A stretch of DNA of 34,396 nucleotides from Butyrivibrio sp. (GTDB lineage: Bacteria > Bacillota > Clostridia > Lachnospirales > Lachnospiraceae): assembly GCA_017615275.1 (NCBI GenBank), contig JAGAAO010000040.1:1-34396 (forward strand), in the 5' to 3' direction. Shown in pieces: positions 15,471-20,327 of the stretch (position 1 is its first letter; each line of letters starts with the position of its first letter). Under the pieces are notes generated by a model that worked only from the letters and a program-made list of their open reading frames with translations, searched no databases and had not been told where the DNA came from. Both the position numbers and the translations under genes were made by a program.

Positions 15471-15680
15471 TTAGATAAAAATACGGTTTGCGAGCCCCTT
15501 ATCCAGAGCAATACGACTATCTTTAACTTTGACGATCATATTTCCGCCGTTTTTACTTACAATGTGAATTTCCTCTCCTACAACGAAACCAAGTTCAGCC
15601 AGATGCTGTTTAATCTCATCACTTCCCGAGATCCTCTTAATTACAACGATCTCATCTATATCTGCCATTGATAAAGGCAT
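15471..15680 (-). CDS. feoA: FeoA-type SH3-like protein (first copy)
   Basis: A 69-residue FeoA-domain protein (LAELGFVVGEEIHIVSKNGGN core). I place the start at the ATG at 15680, which has GGAGG eight bases upstream; the in-frame TTG at 15695 overlaps that site. It is the first gene of the feo operon. The two FeoA proteins are clearly different in sequence, so this is not a recent duplication. The promoter and operator lie at 15707-15763. Confidence 0.93.
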   Translation of the reverse strand: MPLSMADIDEIVVIKRISGSDEIKQHLAELGFVVGEEIHIVSKNGGNMIVKVKDSRIALDKGLANRIFI

Positions 15681-15706
15681 AAAAACTACCTCCAAAAAAC
15701 CAATAT

Positions 15707-15730
15707 ATCGGTTAGCATAATCTAACCGAT
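15707..15730. promoter_or_regulatory. Inverted-repeat operator of the feo operon
   Basis: ATCGGTTAG (15707-15715) and CTAACCGAT (15722-15730) form a perfect 9-bp inverted repeat with a 6-base spacer. A further GTTAG at 15732-15736 makes an overlapping CTAAC-N5-GTTAG repeat that reaches the -10 box. The GGTTAG/CTAACC half-sites recall DtxR/IdeR boxes, but the 6-base spacing is not the standard one. It does not resemble a Fur box. An iron-responsive repressor is inferred. Confidence 0.7.
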
Positions 15731-15734
15731 TGTT

Positions 15735-15763
15735 AGTCTAGTATAACAGAGAAGTTTTGTCAA
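15735..15763 (-). promoter_or_regulatory. Promoter of the feo operon
   Basis: On the minus strand a perfect TTGACA (15763-15758), a 17-base spacer and TAGACT (15740-15735). The predicted start site near 15728 falls inside the inverted repeat at 15707-15730. Confidence 0.75.
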
Positions 15764-15776
15764 TACCAATTTTATA

Positions 15777-16346
15777 CCCCTGGTCACGGGAATTACACTC
15801 ACCTGCGCTGCGCCGCTTCTGACTCCGCCGCCATAGCTGCCTGCACTCCGTATGGGGCTGTGGGGGAGGTGATTTTTTGTCTGTGAAAAAGTTGTGGATT
15901 CATGAGGCTCCCAAATCCGACCTTAAATTCTTCTCGCTGCTCATTTGTCTGACATTCCGATTGCCTACGGACAAGGACTTTGGACCTTATACTTTTTCGC
16001 TACCAACAAATCTCACATTTTCTCGGATGTTCCGTCGTTTTTCTTTTAACGCGCATACTGCGACTATAAACGTCTCGTATGCGCAGGAAAAACGACTTTG
16101 GAACATCTGAAAATGTGGATCTGTTGCTAATGACTCAAAAGTATAAGATCCAAAGCCTTAGTCCGTAGGCAATCGGAATGGAGTTTATGAGCTGCAGAAT
16201 TTAAGGTAGGATTTTGAAGCCCATGAATCCAGGCGAAAGAGCGACAAAAAATCACCTCCCCCACAGCCCCATACGGAGTGCAGGCAGCTATGGCGTCGGA
16301 GTCAGAAGCGGCGCAGCCGGGGAACACGCAAAGCCGTGACCGGAGG
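15777..16346. repeat. Giant imperfect palindrome, about 570 bp, no gene
   Basis: The whole interval between the feo operon and the MFS gene is one inverted repeat with its centre near 16067. Outermost: GGTCACGG (15782-15789) with CCGTGACC (16334-16341). Next, 15807-15881 is complementary to 16243-16317 at 74 of 75 positions (the mismatch is 15828/16296). Further in, matched pairs include 15896-15904/16222-16230, 15921-15930/16197-16206, 15954-15972/16161-16179 (19 of 19), 15986-15996/16137-16147, 16014-16022/16109-16117, 16026-16033/16100-16107, 16034-16043/16087-16096 and 16051-16058/16077-16084. Four-base ATAC flanks (15774-15777 and 16348-16351) could be a target duplication. It contains no convincing protein gene. 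Confidence 0.9.
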
Positions 16347-16349
16347 CAT

Positions 16350-16378
16350 ACTTTCCTTAGTGGAAAGTTTTTCTTTTC
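16350..16378 (+). terminator. Intrinsic terminator next to the palindrome
   Basis: ACTTTCC (16350-16356) and GGAAAGT (16362-16368) form a 7-bp stem with a 5-base loop, followed by TTTTCTTTT. No plus-strand gene precedes it, so it would end transcripts that run rightwards through the palindrome. Confidence 0.7.
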
Positions 16379-16396
16379 CTAATTGGATGAATGGTA

Positions 16397-16405
16397 TGTT
16401 ATAAT
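16397..16405 (+). promoter_or_regulatory. Extended -10 promoter of the MFS-regulator pair
   Basis: TGT directly before a perfect TATAAT (16400-16405) makes an extended -10 element; no good -35 box is seen. It leaves a leader of nearly 100 bases before the MFS gene. Confidence 0.55.
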
Positions 16406-16499
16406 GACAGCGAAATCTTGGTAAGCTTTAGCCATAAGTTTTTTGCCCTTTTAAGGACTTTTTAAGAATCTACACTTTACAGTAGTAGTACGAGGAAGG

Positions 16500-17798
16500 A
16501 TGTTTGATATGGCTAATGAAATGACTTACAAGGATATCTTTAAGGACAGACAATACAGAAAGATTTTATTTTCTAATCTGATCAACAGGTTTGGAGACTC
16601 GATAGATGCAATAGCATTTACATGGCTTATTTATCAGATCACGCAGAGTGCTTCGTGGGCTGCACTCATTTACGGACTCAACAGGCTTCCAAATATTGTG
16701 CTTCAGCCTTTTCTCGGTCCGATAGTCGAAAAGACGGATAAAAAGAAAGTCATTGTGTCTTCTCATATTATAAGAGGAATCACAATTGCGGTATTTGCAT
16801 TTATGTACATAGCGGGTATGGTAACACCGTATATATTGACCGCGTTTACAATTTTGATCACGACGATTGAATCTTTCAATCTCCCTGCATCAACAGCTAT
16901 CATTCCTCTTGTTGTAAAAAAAGAGAAGCTGGCACACGCGATCAGCTTAAATTCATGCTTGTCGAACGTTGCAACACTTATAGGAACAGGTCTTTCAGGT
17001 GTTATACTCGCAAACCTCGGAGTACAATTTGCAATGCTTGTCGATGTCTCCACATTCTTTTTGGCAGCGCTTATTATCTTGCCGTTAAAGACCAATCAAA
17101 GCTCTGCTGATTCAAATGCCCCCAAAGCCGCTGAACAGAATTCATATTTCTCATTGCTTAAAGACGGCATTAAATATTTACTTGGTAACCATATAATAAT
17201 GAACATATGCTTCATTGCCTTACTTATGAATTTCTTTTTGGTACCACTCAACGCATTGGAAGCTCCGATTGCCGAAGAAATTTACGGCTTGGGAAGCGGA
17301 ATACTGAGCGTTATGGGAATGGCAGGCGCGATAGGTGGAATCTTCGGCGCAGTTATAATTCCCAAGATAATAGCTAAACTCTCTGTAAAAAAAGTCCTTG
17401 TTTACGGAGGTTCAGCAATGGGTATATTCATGTTTATCCTGTCACTTGGCGGATATTTTAAGGGAATGCTTGTTCCCGGATATCTCCTTGCAGGTATCAG
17501 CTTTTTTATGATGGCGACAGCCGCATCTGTCTTAAATGGGACAATAGATATACAGTTCGGAAAAAACTGCGAAAAAGAATATCTTGCAAGAGTAGGCTCT
17601 GTTATTGGCGCCATCTCCATAACTGCGATGCCGATCGGTTCTTTTATAATAAGTTTTTTATCAATAAATATAAGCACTTCAGTCTTGCTTGCATCATACG
17701 GGATCATGTTTACGATACTGATGATCCTAGTATTTATAAGTAACATGGATTTTGAAACAAAGGAAAAGGACGTAGAAAATGAAACTAAAACTATCTGA
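16500..17798 (+). CDS. MFS transporter (EntS/MFS_3-like exporter)
   Basis: A 432-residue integral membrane protein with about 12 hydrophobic segments, of the major facilitator superfamily. The N-terminal FSNLINRFGDSIDAIAFTWLIYQ and the PFLGPIVEKTDKKKVIVSSHIIRG loop resemble the MFS_3/EntS and macrolide-efflux-like group. The substrate is unknown. The start is either 16500 or 16509; GAGGAAGG lies just upstream and gives the better spacing for 16509. The 3' end overlaps the next gene, an XRE/TPR regulator, by 20 bases, so the two are translationally coupled. Confidence 0.88.
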   Translation: MFDMANEMTYKDIFKDRQYRKILFSNLINRFGDSIDAIAFTWLIYQITQSASWAALIYGLNRLPNIVLQPFLGPIVEKTDKKKVIVSSHIIRGITIAVFAFMYIAGMVTPYILTAFTILITTIESFNLPASTAIIPLVVKKEKLAHAISLNSCLSNVATLIGTGLSGVILANLGVQFAMLVDVSTFFLAALIILPLKTNQSSADSNAPKAAEQNSYFSLLKDGIKYLLGNHIIMNICFIALLMNFFLVPLNALEAPIAEEIYGLGSGILSVMGMAGAIGGIFGAVIIPKIIAKLSVKKVLVYGGSAMGIFMFILSLGGYFKGMLVPGYLLAGISFFMMATAASVLNGTIDIQFGKNCEKEYLARVGSVIGAISITAMPIGSFIISFLSINISTSVLLASYGIMFTILMILVFISNMDFETKEKDVENETKTI

Positions 17799-18900
17799 CA
17801 ACATAAAAAAATACAGAAAAGAAATGGAACTCACACAGGAAGGGCTTGCCGATGCCATCGGTGTCACAGTAGGCGCCGTATCCAAATGGGAAAGAGGAAG
17901 TAACACCCCTGATATTGTTACTATGATGGAACTTGCTAACCTTTTTGATATCTCGCTTGATGAATTGGTAGGCTACGATATGTCGTCCAAAAAAATTGAA
18001 GACATGTGTGCCAGAATAGAATCACTCGGATTGGAACACCGTTTTGACGAAGCGATAAAAGAAGCCGGTGATGCCATATTGCGCTATCCTCACAACTTCA
18101 AAGTGCTTCATACATATGCGGATATCTATTTACTCAAAACAATGGAAACCCTAAATCCGGATGACGCAGAAAAAGGAATCTCGCTCTTTAACGAAGCTCT
18201 TCGCCACATATCTCAGAATAATGATCCTGAAATAAACAAATATAATATTAAGACAAAGATTGCTCATCTGTATATAGAAGTCGATCCCGAGAAAGCACTT
18301 GAACACCTAAAAGAAATCAATTTCAACAATAATCTCTGCAACGAGATTGCACTTGTTCTACAGCATCTCGGAAGGACAACCGAAGCTCTTGATAACTTTA
18401 CTCTTGCCCTTATACAGAATCATAGCGATCAGTGCCTTATTGTGATAAATTTCGCATGGGCGCTAATTGATACAGATAAAAATTGTAATCTCAGAAAAGC
18501 AATAGAGCTGCTCGATATTCAACTTGCCATATGCGATGCATACAGTTACCAAGATAAGATAACCTACATTTATAAAAACAAATTGTTATTGATGATTTCA
18601 AAAGCCTGCCTCTATTCATTGCTCGATGACCAAAAAGAAATGAAAAACTGCGTTAAAGAGACCCAGCGCATGAGCAAACTATTTTGTAGCGTCAATCCAC
18701 CTTTGGATATTGAAGATTTTTTTAAGTTTAATTTCTCATCAGAAAAACACCATCCTTACGACATGTACGGGAATGATGCAAATACAGGTATAGACACTTT
18801 TCTTCAAAGAAAAGTGGATACGATGTCCGGAAAAAAACGCGAGTGCATACAACGCGTCATCGATTACTGGAATAATACAAAAGAAGTCTCGGCTAATTAA
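17779..18900 (+). CDS. XRE-family HTH regulator with TPR-like C-terminal region
   Basis: A 373-residue protein with an N-terminal Cro/C1-type HTH (about residues 6-62: LSDNIKKYRKEMELTQEGLA, then AVSKWERGSNTPDI). A long helical region follows, with TPR-like spacing (ALEHLKEINF, HLGRTTEALDNFTLAL, CLIVINFAWALIDTDKN). HTH-TPR proteins often sense a peptide or small ligand through the TPR part. It overlaps the MFS gene, so it probably controls its own operon, though this is an inference. AAGGA precedes the ATG. The stop codon lies in the loop of the downstream terminator. Confidence 0.88.
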   Translation: MKLKLSDNIKKYRKEMELTQEGLADAIGVTVGAVSKWERGSNTPDIVTMMELANLFDISLDELVGYDMSSKKIEDMCARIESLGLEHRFDEAIKEAGDAILRYPHNFKVLHTYADIYLLKTMETLNPDDAEKGISLFNEALRHISQNNDPEINKYNIKTKIAHLYIEVDPEKALEHLKEINFNNNLCNEIALVLQHLGRTTEALDNFTLALIQNHSDQCLIVINFAWALIDTDKNCNLRKAIELLDIQLAICDAYSYQDKITYIYKNKLLLMISKACLYSLLDDQKEMKNCVKETQRMSKLFCSVNPPLDIEDFFKFNFSSEKHHPYDMYGNDANTGIDTFLQRKVDTMSGKKRECIQRVIDYWNNTKEVSAN

Positions 18901-18913
18901 GCCGGGACTTCTT
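18881..18913. terminator. Bidirectional terminator between the XRE/TPR gene and phoH
   Basis: AAGAAGTCTCGGCT (18881-18894) pairs with AGCCGGGACTTCTT (18900-18913) with one mismatch. The 5-base loop contains most of the TAA stop codon of the regulator. The T-tract is interrupted on both strands (TTTTGTATTATT on the minus strand). Confidence 0.75.
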
Positions 18914-18935
18914 GCTTATTCTTTATGAAGATTTA

Positions 18936-20327
18936 TTAAAAATCTTTTTTGTCACGCATTCTTTCAATGGCGTCCATAGCGAGATGACTTCTCTCACACT
19001 CTGAAGCGGACAGAGATATCTGCCAGCAGAAAGGGCTGCCCTTCATATGTTCCGATGCATATGACAATCCGTTTGTCCTCTCATCAAGGAACGGTCTGTC
19101 TATCTGGTTCGGATCTCCCAAAAGGATTATCTTGGTGTCCTTTCCTGCTCTTGTGATGATACCTTTTGCCTGTGTAGGAGTCATGTTCTGCGCTTCATCT
19201 ATAATAAGGTAGGTCTTAAGTATTGACCTTCCTCTTATAAAGTTAAGCGCTTCACACTGAATAATTCCTCTATCAAAAACTTCATCAGTTTTATCATTGA
19301 GTTCTTTTTCATCCTTATAGCGTTCTTCCTCGTTGGAATCGATAAGCTGTTCAAGGTTATCGATTATAGGACGCATAAGAGGTGAGATCTTTTCCTGCTC
19401 GTCGCCGGGTAAAAATCCTATATCATCGTCAAACTGAGAATTTGGTCTACAAACAAGAATTCTTCTGTACTCCCCCGTAGGCCTGTTTAAGAGTTTCTCA
19501 AGTCCCACAGCAAGTGAATAGAAAGTCTTGGCTGTTCCCGCCATTCCTTTGACAATTACAAGCGGTGCTACATCAGCCGGCTGCATAAGAGCTTCCTGAA
19601 GGAAATACTGACCTGCATTTCTCGGCTTAACACCGTAGGGCTGGCTCTTTTCATAATCAAGCTTTTTGATAAAGCCGTTTGAGACTCTGCCCATCTGAGT
19701 TTTATTATTGGATTGATCTGCTCTCACCACAACAAACTCGTTTTCGTAAAGATCCGGCTTATACTGTTTACCTTCTTCATCACAGCAATAAACCTTATCT
19801 ATAGGGATGCCTTTTTTCTTGAAATCCTTAAAGGCATCTTCGGGAGCATACACGTCAACTCGTCCGCTGTACTGCTCTCCGCCCCCTGCAACCTGCTCAG
19901 TGGTAAAGTCCTCGGATCTCATACTGAGTATCTGAGCCTTTATCCTCATGAGAATGTCCTTGGTTACAAGAACTACCTGCTCTTTCCTCGTATCTGAAAG
20001 CCCTTTACATACCTTCAAAATACGATTGTCGGACTTGTGCTCCGACATGTCTTGAGGAAGCTCAACATCCTTGAAGTTCTTTTCAACCCTCAGAACTCCA
20101 CCGTTATCGAGCTTGACCCCTGCAACCAGATCGCCTGTGCCCCTCATTTGTTCGAGGATTCTGATTGCCTCGCGTACATTCGCTCCTCTCTCGCCCTCAT
20201 CACGCTTATGGGCGTCAAGTTCTTCTAAGACTACCAGCGGAAGAACGACCTCGTTATCATCGAAGCACTTCAAGGCGTGTGGTGCCTGAATCAAAACGTT
20301 GGTGTCCAGTACGTAGATCTTCTTCAT
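18936..20327 (-). CDS. PhoH-family ATPase with N-terminal PIN domain
   Basis: The 463-residue protein joins a PIN RNase domain (about residues 3-140, opening IYVLDTNVLI with Asp8) to a PhoH-type ATPase domain. Walker A is GMAGTAKT (261-268) and Walker B is YLIIDEAQN (Asp377-Glu378). PIN-PhoH proteins (PhoH2/YlaK type) are thought to be ATP-dependent RNA helicase/ribonucleases; the cellular role is poorly known. GGGGG lies seven bases before the ATG. An extended -10 promoter is seen just upstream. It is transcribed apart from sulP. Confidence 0.92.
   Translation of the reverse strand: MKKIYVLDTNVLIQAPHALKCFDDNEVVLPLVVLEELDAHKRDEGERGANVREAIRILEQMRGTGDLVAGVKLDNGGVLRVEKNFKDVELPQDMSEHKSDNRILKVCKGLSDTRKEQVVLVTKDILMRIKAQILSMRSEDFTTEQVAGGGEQYSGRVDVYAPEDAFKDFKKKGIPIDKVYCCDEEGKQYKPDLYENEFVVVRADQSNNKTQMGRVSNGFIKKLDYEKSQPYGVKPRNAGQYFLQEALMQPADVAPLVIVKGMAGTAKTFYSLAVGLEKLLNRPTGEYRRILVCRPNSQFDDDIGFLPGDEQEKISPLMRPIIDNLEQLIDSNEEERYKDEKELNDKTDEVFDRGIIQCEALNFIRGRSILKTYLIIDEAQNMTPTQAKGIITRAGKDTKIILLGDPNQIDRPFLDERTNGLSYASEHMKGSPFCWQISLSASECERSHLAMDAIERMRDKKDF

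Follow-up and report, generated by a model that had tools for sequence, protein, structure and literature searches.

The long palindrome at positions 15807-16317 of the window (the whole 34,396-nucleotide stretch of DNA from Butyrivibrio sp. that was analysed) probably belongs to a family of miniature transposons that are giant palindromes (fold-back MITEs) with conserved internal loops, a reading of the sequence to which we assign a probability of about 0.7. At the level of the family, the unit is present or absent at one orthologous site, its two arms change together, and it is found flipped. The better-preserved copies carry inverted GTTACYATTCACAG ends, and the best-preserved ones are flanked by 8-bp target duplications. 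The presumed family membership of the window copy rests on its interior, recognisable ends being absent.

When the window palindrome was aligned to its own reverse complement, 432 of the 480 aligned columns agreed, and the predicted RNA fold of 15760-16400 reached -399.7 kcal/mol, compared to a mean of -182.5 kcal/mol for 20 shuffled sequences (z -28). An earlier interpretation based on the letters and their open reading frames (hereafter the sequence-only reading) had described a long near-perfect palindrome with nearly identical 75-bp outer arms, and both descriptions are confirmed. Outside the main arms there is an extra 10-nt stem, with an unpaired stretch in between. The parts of the palindrome are listed in Table 1.

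Table 1. Features of the window palindrome and its right-hand border, with positions in the window.
Feature	Position	Strand	Basis or remark
Outermost 10-nt stem, left half, CTGGTCACGG	15780-15789		Read in the sequence; paired in the RNA fold
Outer left arm, 75 nt	15807-15881		99% complementary to 16243-16317
Internal loop 1, left side, TGTGAAAAAGT	15882-15892 (approximate)	+	Unpaired; copies L003 and L005 have a similar unpaired TGTGAAAGAG
Internal loop motif A, TTGTCTGA	15945-15952	+	Faces 16180-16187; unpaired columns conserved in 17 representative copies
Middle stem, left arm, fast-changing yet paired	15953-15996		91% complementary to 16137-16180
Conserved 5' core	15997-16072	+	R1 match of 72.7 bits, partly by construction (the copy is among the 23 of R1)
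Apex region	16060-16076		Further stem here in longer copies (copy printouts)
Core mirror in right arm	16076-16132	-	R1 match on the opposite strand, E 4.2e-4
Middle stem, right arm	16137-16180		Complementarity and paired changes
Internal loop motif B', GGAGTTTA	16180-16187	+	Faces 15945-15952; conserved in the 17-copy alignment; unpaired opposite TTGTCTGA
Internal loop 1, right side, GGCGAAAGAGCG	16232-16243 (approximate)	+	Sequence reading and copy printouts
Outer right arm, 75 nt	16243-16317		Partner of 15807-15881
Outermost 10-nt stem, right half, CCGTGACCGG	16334-16343		Read in the sequence; paired in the RNA fold
Terminator-like site past right end	16350-16368	+	Consensus match only

A BLASTN search for further copies, as proposed in the sequence-only reading, was productive: it gave 14 matches to the palindrome in its own genome, some of them the two strands of one place, and 31 BLAST-found places overall, 27 of which are self-palindromes of at least 140 bp. 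We also used R1, a sequence-only model of the 5' core built from 23 copies, the window copy included. R1 found nine core matches below E 1e-9 in the own genome and, across 79 genomes of the Butyrivibrio group, matches in 25 at E<=1e-6 and in 34 at E<=0.01, whereas 45 had none. The number of matches per genome reached 18 in this set, with ten or more in some genomes. Among 42 R1 places chosen for retrieval, 38 lie in palindromes of at least 260 bp, and three of the other four reach a contig end. The family palindromes are mostly about 400-900 bp long, and the copies lie between genes, although some extend tens of bases into an adjoining frame. Copies within one genome are often near-identical inside (G064).

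The distribution of the family is patchy. In 397 genomes drawn across the taxonomic family, four matched R1 at E<=1e-4 (G000, G003, G322 and G304). G322 belongs to another genus and has 11 places matching R1; the single G304 match falls within a reading frame, has no matching palindrome and is probably spurious. Named genomes scanned with a pattern gave eight stretches, all from Butyrivibrio (seven in strain INlla14 and one in a metagenome assembly). The core pattern had no match in viral contigs, nor had the palindrome any in phage and plasmid records. No description of the palindrome family was found in open-licence papers, which is weak evidence of novelty. The two copies at L151 (G000:C26) are separated by about 700 bp, and the palindrome of the second is shorter, being trimmed on both arms. 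A composite transposon formed by paired palindromes was considered and set aside, as the genes between nearby pairs vary from one pair to the next (translations read; a Pfam search with L099 gave no match).

Two quite different origins for such palindromes can be weighed at this point. Chimeric inverted reads could produce false palindromes during assembly or amplification; the window genome is fragmented (99 contigs, 84.8% complete), and several copies are found at contig ends. However, copies with the same asymmetric loops are found mid-contig in many genomes (among them Butyrivibrio sp. INlla14 and, on a contig of 3.55 Mb, G006), and one orthologous copy is present in two species, which makes an artefact very improbable. 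A degraded gene or coding sequence could have left the frames that are seen, namely one of 77 aa (15877-16110) starting in the left arm of the window palindrome, one of 66 aa on its minus strand, and frames of up to 131 aa lying mostly inside other copies. Against this, the 5' core is kept as nucleotides with one-base gaps between subfamilies, so that no frame is kept across subfamilies, and the probability of a coding origin is practically negligible. The other copies contain no frame longer than 131 aa mostly inside the palindrome, and no transposase gene was seen in them (first 70 residues read).

Printing the copies against their own reverse complements revealed a common plan, in which the stems are broken by asymmetric internal loops at fixed places. 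The recurring loops are GAAAGAG opposite GAAAGAG, a bulge within TTCATGAG, TTGTCTGA opposite GAGTTTT, a three-base bulge next to ATGTTTCC, and TTTTAAT next to GCGCATGC. Longer copies have an extra stem with side hairpins past GCGCATGC, which the window copy lacks. The outer stems of L002, L003 and L005, all from one genome, differ over nearly their whole length, yet each remains almost perfectly paired. In general the outer stems are the most variable part between copies and the inner loops the conserved part, so the selection on the outer arms suggested by the sequence-only reading finds no support. The gradient that it had noted, with perfect outer and imperfect inner arms, stands as a pattern but not as a sign of decay, since in other copies the mismatches and indels of the inner arms turn up again at the same positions, as internal loops.

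The same difference is seen in the conservation of alignment columns, scored as mean majority frequency in one alignment of 17 related copies from 17 genomes, where the effect is modest: 0.734 for the 93 mostly unpaired columns versus 0.652 for the 327 mostly paired ones (p 5e-4), with the 203 mixed columns as the least conserved class (0.572). Conservation is higher in the unpaired than in the paired columns, and the inner "mismatches" are thus not decay. In the 17-copy consensus the TTGTYTGA/GAGTTTT loop occurs a second time, closer to the apex and with its sides swapped; being present twice in opposite register, it gives the hairpin of each strand both forms. In L089 and L222 a small hairpin of about 40 nt, present on one side only, is inserted within one of the conserved internal loops.

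An ordinary palindromic MITE with an interior that is mere baggage would also have loops that look conserved if its copies were young and related and correction between the arms had yet to act on the loops. The near-identical interiors of copies within one genome, the modest size of the loop conservation, and the existence of 143-bp and 47-bp elements that share the ends are all compatible with this. On the other hand, the loops are common to genomes whose stem sequences differ widely, the unpaired columns are the most conserved class among copies from 17 genomes, and asymmetric loops should be lost through arm correction if nothing preserved them. A baggage interior is for these reasons distinctly unlikely. 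With the transposon family as the preferred reading, the internal loops would be kept by selection, most simply through recognition in an extruded or single-stranded DNA hairpin, although this step is less firmly grounded than those concerning movement and arm pairing.

The covariance across copies, another check suggested by the sequence-only reading, bore out the pairing. In four copies from the own genome both sides had changed in 33 of 129 pairs, compared to a shuffle mean of 12.5 (0 of 500 shuffles reached 33) and to 3-9 in slid controls; the structure scored came from these four sequences, which favours the pairing result. In the helix around the middle stem, both sides had changed in 23 of 45 pairs (four copies). 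The orthologous elements L102 and L104 (G004 and G069) differ by 21 compensated and 20 one-sided changes. This element has been flipped in place: 617 of 689 positions are identical when one copy is inverted and 533 of 671 when it is not, with flanks identical at 954 of 978 and 844 of 971 positions. In L007 the inner part is inverted relative to the outer part. The gene conversion between arms proposed by the sequence-only reading fits these observations, as both arms change together and copies flip.

Compensated stem changes, loops more conserved than stems, and asymmetric loops kept on each arm separately across genomes would also be compatible with a family of large structured RNA genes, each giving a rod-like RNA of about 400-900 nt whose conserved loops bind protein or undergo RNase III cleavage, transposition being incidental. 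The sequence-only reading had placed a plus-strand terminator just past the right end of the window copy, and a terminator-like site is indeed present there, which would suit an RNA gene, but the signal is weak (two sites on both strands versus a shuffle mean of 1.0). A simple scan of 15690-16500 gave no promoter-like site on the plus strand, and the window palindrome had no Rfam match at the gathering threshold. If pairing were under selection in an RNA, G-U mismatches should be preferred to A-C ones. Among the isolated mismatches in 63 copies there were 67 G-U, 76 A-C and 66 others, beside 15,675 Watson-Crick pairs, i.e. no G-U excess (p 0.50); these counts replace a smaller strand test in which some of the 23 copies were unoriented (44 G-U versus 43 A-C). 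The lack of an excess in the 63 copies argues against RNA-level selection on the stems, albeit the one-sided changes in the ortholog pair lean to G-U (10 G-U, 4 A-C and 6 others). Two further points count against an RNA gene: at one orthologous site the element stands inverted with respect to its surroundings, and 57 copies have neighbours in every arrangement (+- 19, ++ 15, -+ 12, -- 10, ?- 1), as counted from a simple gene drawing in which frames overlapping the palindrome by at least 60 bp were set aside. Taken together, we consider an RNA gene family, and with it the giant hairpin RNA offered as an alternative by the sequence-only reading, rather unlikely.

Instead, pairing of the arms seems to be kept at the DNA level, as suggested by the lack of G-U excess and by copies that flip in place. 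In the preferred reading, the arms of the transposon would be kept complementary by DNA-level correction, through template switching in hairpins or cruciforms or through recombination between the arms. Paired changes together with loop inversions have been described as marks of template switching for RNA stems (PMC8794818), and we infer by analogy that template switching may be a mechanism that maintains the arms. The share of transversions was considered as a means to distinguish DNA from RNA and was dropped: it amounts to 44% of the compensated changes (988 of 2267, four groups), too near the value of 39% that PMC8794818 implies for rRNA.

The family is mobile, judging from a precise empty site in a relative with 94-97% identical flanks. 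Where G065 has the L091 element G003 has 21 bp instead, and the flanks are 97% and 94% identical; the site is clean at this one locus only. Of seven further loci, five (L200, L201, L202, L204 and L205) lack the element in another genome, where the two flanks adjoin with spacers of 63-125 bp; L201 and L202 read alike at their empty loci, and at the remaining two, L203 and L206, one flank was not placeable.

The search for empty sites, which the sequence-only reading had recommended, thus succeeded at the L091 locus but not at the window locus, where relatives lack a whole block. The window palindrome lies between feo genes, the nearest being a minus-strand frame (15471-15695) that we take to be feoA-like as named in the sequence-only reading, and an MFS transporter gene (16500-17798, plus strand; Pfam). 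In six of eight relatives examined, the gene that comes after feo matches the final part of frame 18936-20327, presumably PhoH-like. The palindrome and the MFS and helix-turn-helix genes form a block (15760-18930) that is absent from those six relatives. Since what they lack is everything from the palindrome to the PhoH-like gene, the locus does not offer a clean empty-site test. At the contig end, positions 1-47 of the window hold a minus-strand fragment that matches a group II intron D1-D4 family.

The terminal motif GTTACYATTCACAG (up to 4 mismatches) was present at both ends in 14 of the 67 copies with enough flank. For these 14 the identity between the two flanks was 0.54 at a length of 8 bp versus 0.29 for swapped flanks, and flank lengths of 3-7 and 9-12 stayed within 0.08 of the control. 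The 8-bp match was perfect in two of the 14, at least 6/8 in five, and at most 5/8 in nine. Short elements with the same ends were also found. Three of 143-144 bp (L264-L266) have GTTACYATTCACAG ends and, by eye, perfect 8-bp duplications; in other short two-ended elements the 8-bp flanks match, likewise by eye, at 7/8 (L267), 5/8 (L268), 3/8 (L275) and 2/8 (L273) positions. The miniatures L267 and L275 are bounded by GTTACYATTCACAG, and there are even 47-bp elements with GTTACYATTCACAG ends. The ATAC duplication that the sequence-only reading had suspected around the window copy is not upheld: copies with recognisable ends show 8 bp, and in the window copy neither a clear terminal motif nor a target duplication was seen. 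Its suggestion of a palindromic non-autonomous mobile element, on the other hand, holds at the level of the family, with many copies, patchy distribution, an empty site, terminal motifs and 8-bp duplications. The window copy would then represent an aged or altered copy whose ends can no longer be recognised.

GTTACYATTCACAG occurs in 42 of the 79 genus genomes, with a reversed control pattern giving 6 matches in all. With the motif bounding short elements and an IS66-type element as well, a transposition system with such ends seems to exist in the genus. The palindromic element would be moved in trans by a DDE transposase, for which an IS66-like type with the same ends in the genus is the best candidate. 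An IS66-type element (L259) is bounded by the GTTACYATTCACAG motif, and PF03050 matches lie within about 1.5 kb of the motif on four more contigs (G007:C24, G007:C25, G015:C4 and G038:C88), one of them below cut-off. No IS66 transposase was found in G000 (84.8% complete), G003, G006 and G065, all of them many-copy genomes, and the presence of IS66 does not track that of the element (9 of 25 carriers versus 25 of 54 others, p 0.47).

The motif is also found outside the ends CAATGTCATT... of some IS4-like elements, on both sides in L258/L286 and on the one side read in L287, L271 and L277, so the owner of the motif is uncertain. The IS4-like ends stand next to GTTACYATTCACAG as if inserted in, or captured by, a motif pair, and L258 has no 8-bp duplication. 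IS4-like elements were considered as autonomous partner of the palindromes and are not claimed as such, as most have their own ends CAATGTCATT... and only a few the motif outside.

In G003 and G065 the giant palindrome has a separate neighbour, a REP-like unit (TGAGCCCTAGGGACGGAGGTTGTGGCTCA) that is abundant, measures about 29 bp and is often found in inverted pairs (L210, L217, L091, L084). In L091 and L220 this unit makes up the outermost arms, whereas L084 has inserted at the edge of such a unit. On one strand the unit contains CGTC, the tag of a REP super-family (PMC3733652).

Regarding function, it is possible, if somewhat doubtful, that the element works as a folded strand, namely as a giant hairpin of DNA (extruded or single-stranded) or of the corresponding RNA, in which something in the cell recognises a succession of conserved loops. 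Constant arm-arm correction would then let the stems drift freely and selection would hold the loops, so that many 500-bp palindromes could persist. In bacteria, instability would be expected of palindromes this long. Among the 79 genus genomes, 37 have an SbcD (TIGR00619) match over cut-off, with a patchy distribution and weaker SbcD-like matches besides. An SbcD gene is found alongside many core matches in G006 and G064, and with fewer copies in G039 and G012. Absence of SbcD as a permissive factor was considered and is not claimed, as the difference between carriers (8 of 25 over cut-off) and the other genomes (29 of 54; p 0.09) is confounded by kinship. With its many paired changes beside unpaired loops that escape correction, the family offers a natural laboratory for arm-to-arm correction. 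It also carries a warning that strong covariation alone is not evidence for a functional RNA.

Several known systems resemble the palindrome family in part. Like MITEs of bacterial insertion sequences, the elements have inverted ends, a duplication of fixed length, no transposase gene seen inside and many intergenic copies, and would be moved in trans. Unlike MITEs, they form a single palindrome over nearly their full 400-900 bp, the internal loops of which are conserved, and recognisable ends on both sides are confined to the 14 of 67 copies. An 8-bp duplication is typical of the IS66 family, and the giant palindromes share it, as they share the terminal motif on L259; they differ in having no transposase gene, and in several carriers no IS66 gene was found. 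The stem sequence of integron attC sites varies and their unpaired features stay, and the giant palindromes likewise vary in stem and keep unpaired features, but they are much longer, and their ends and 8-bp duplication point to a DDE transposase. REP/BIME elements (PMC3733652) are similar in being dispersed intergenic palindromes with units in inverted pairs, but REPs measure 20-40 bp, whereas the giant palindrome exceeds them ten- to twentyfold in size and comes with an 8-bp duplication. Finally, the paired changes across the stem and the loop inversions resemble those of hairpins maintained by template switching, which in PMC8794818 are rRNA and microRNA stems, whereas here hundreds of base pairs and a mobile element are involved.
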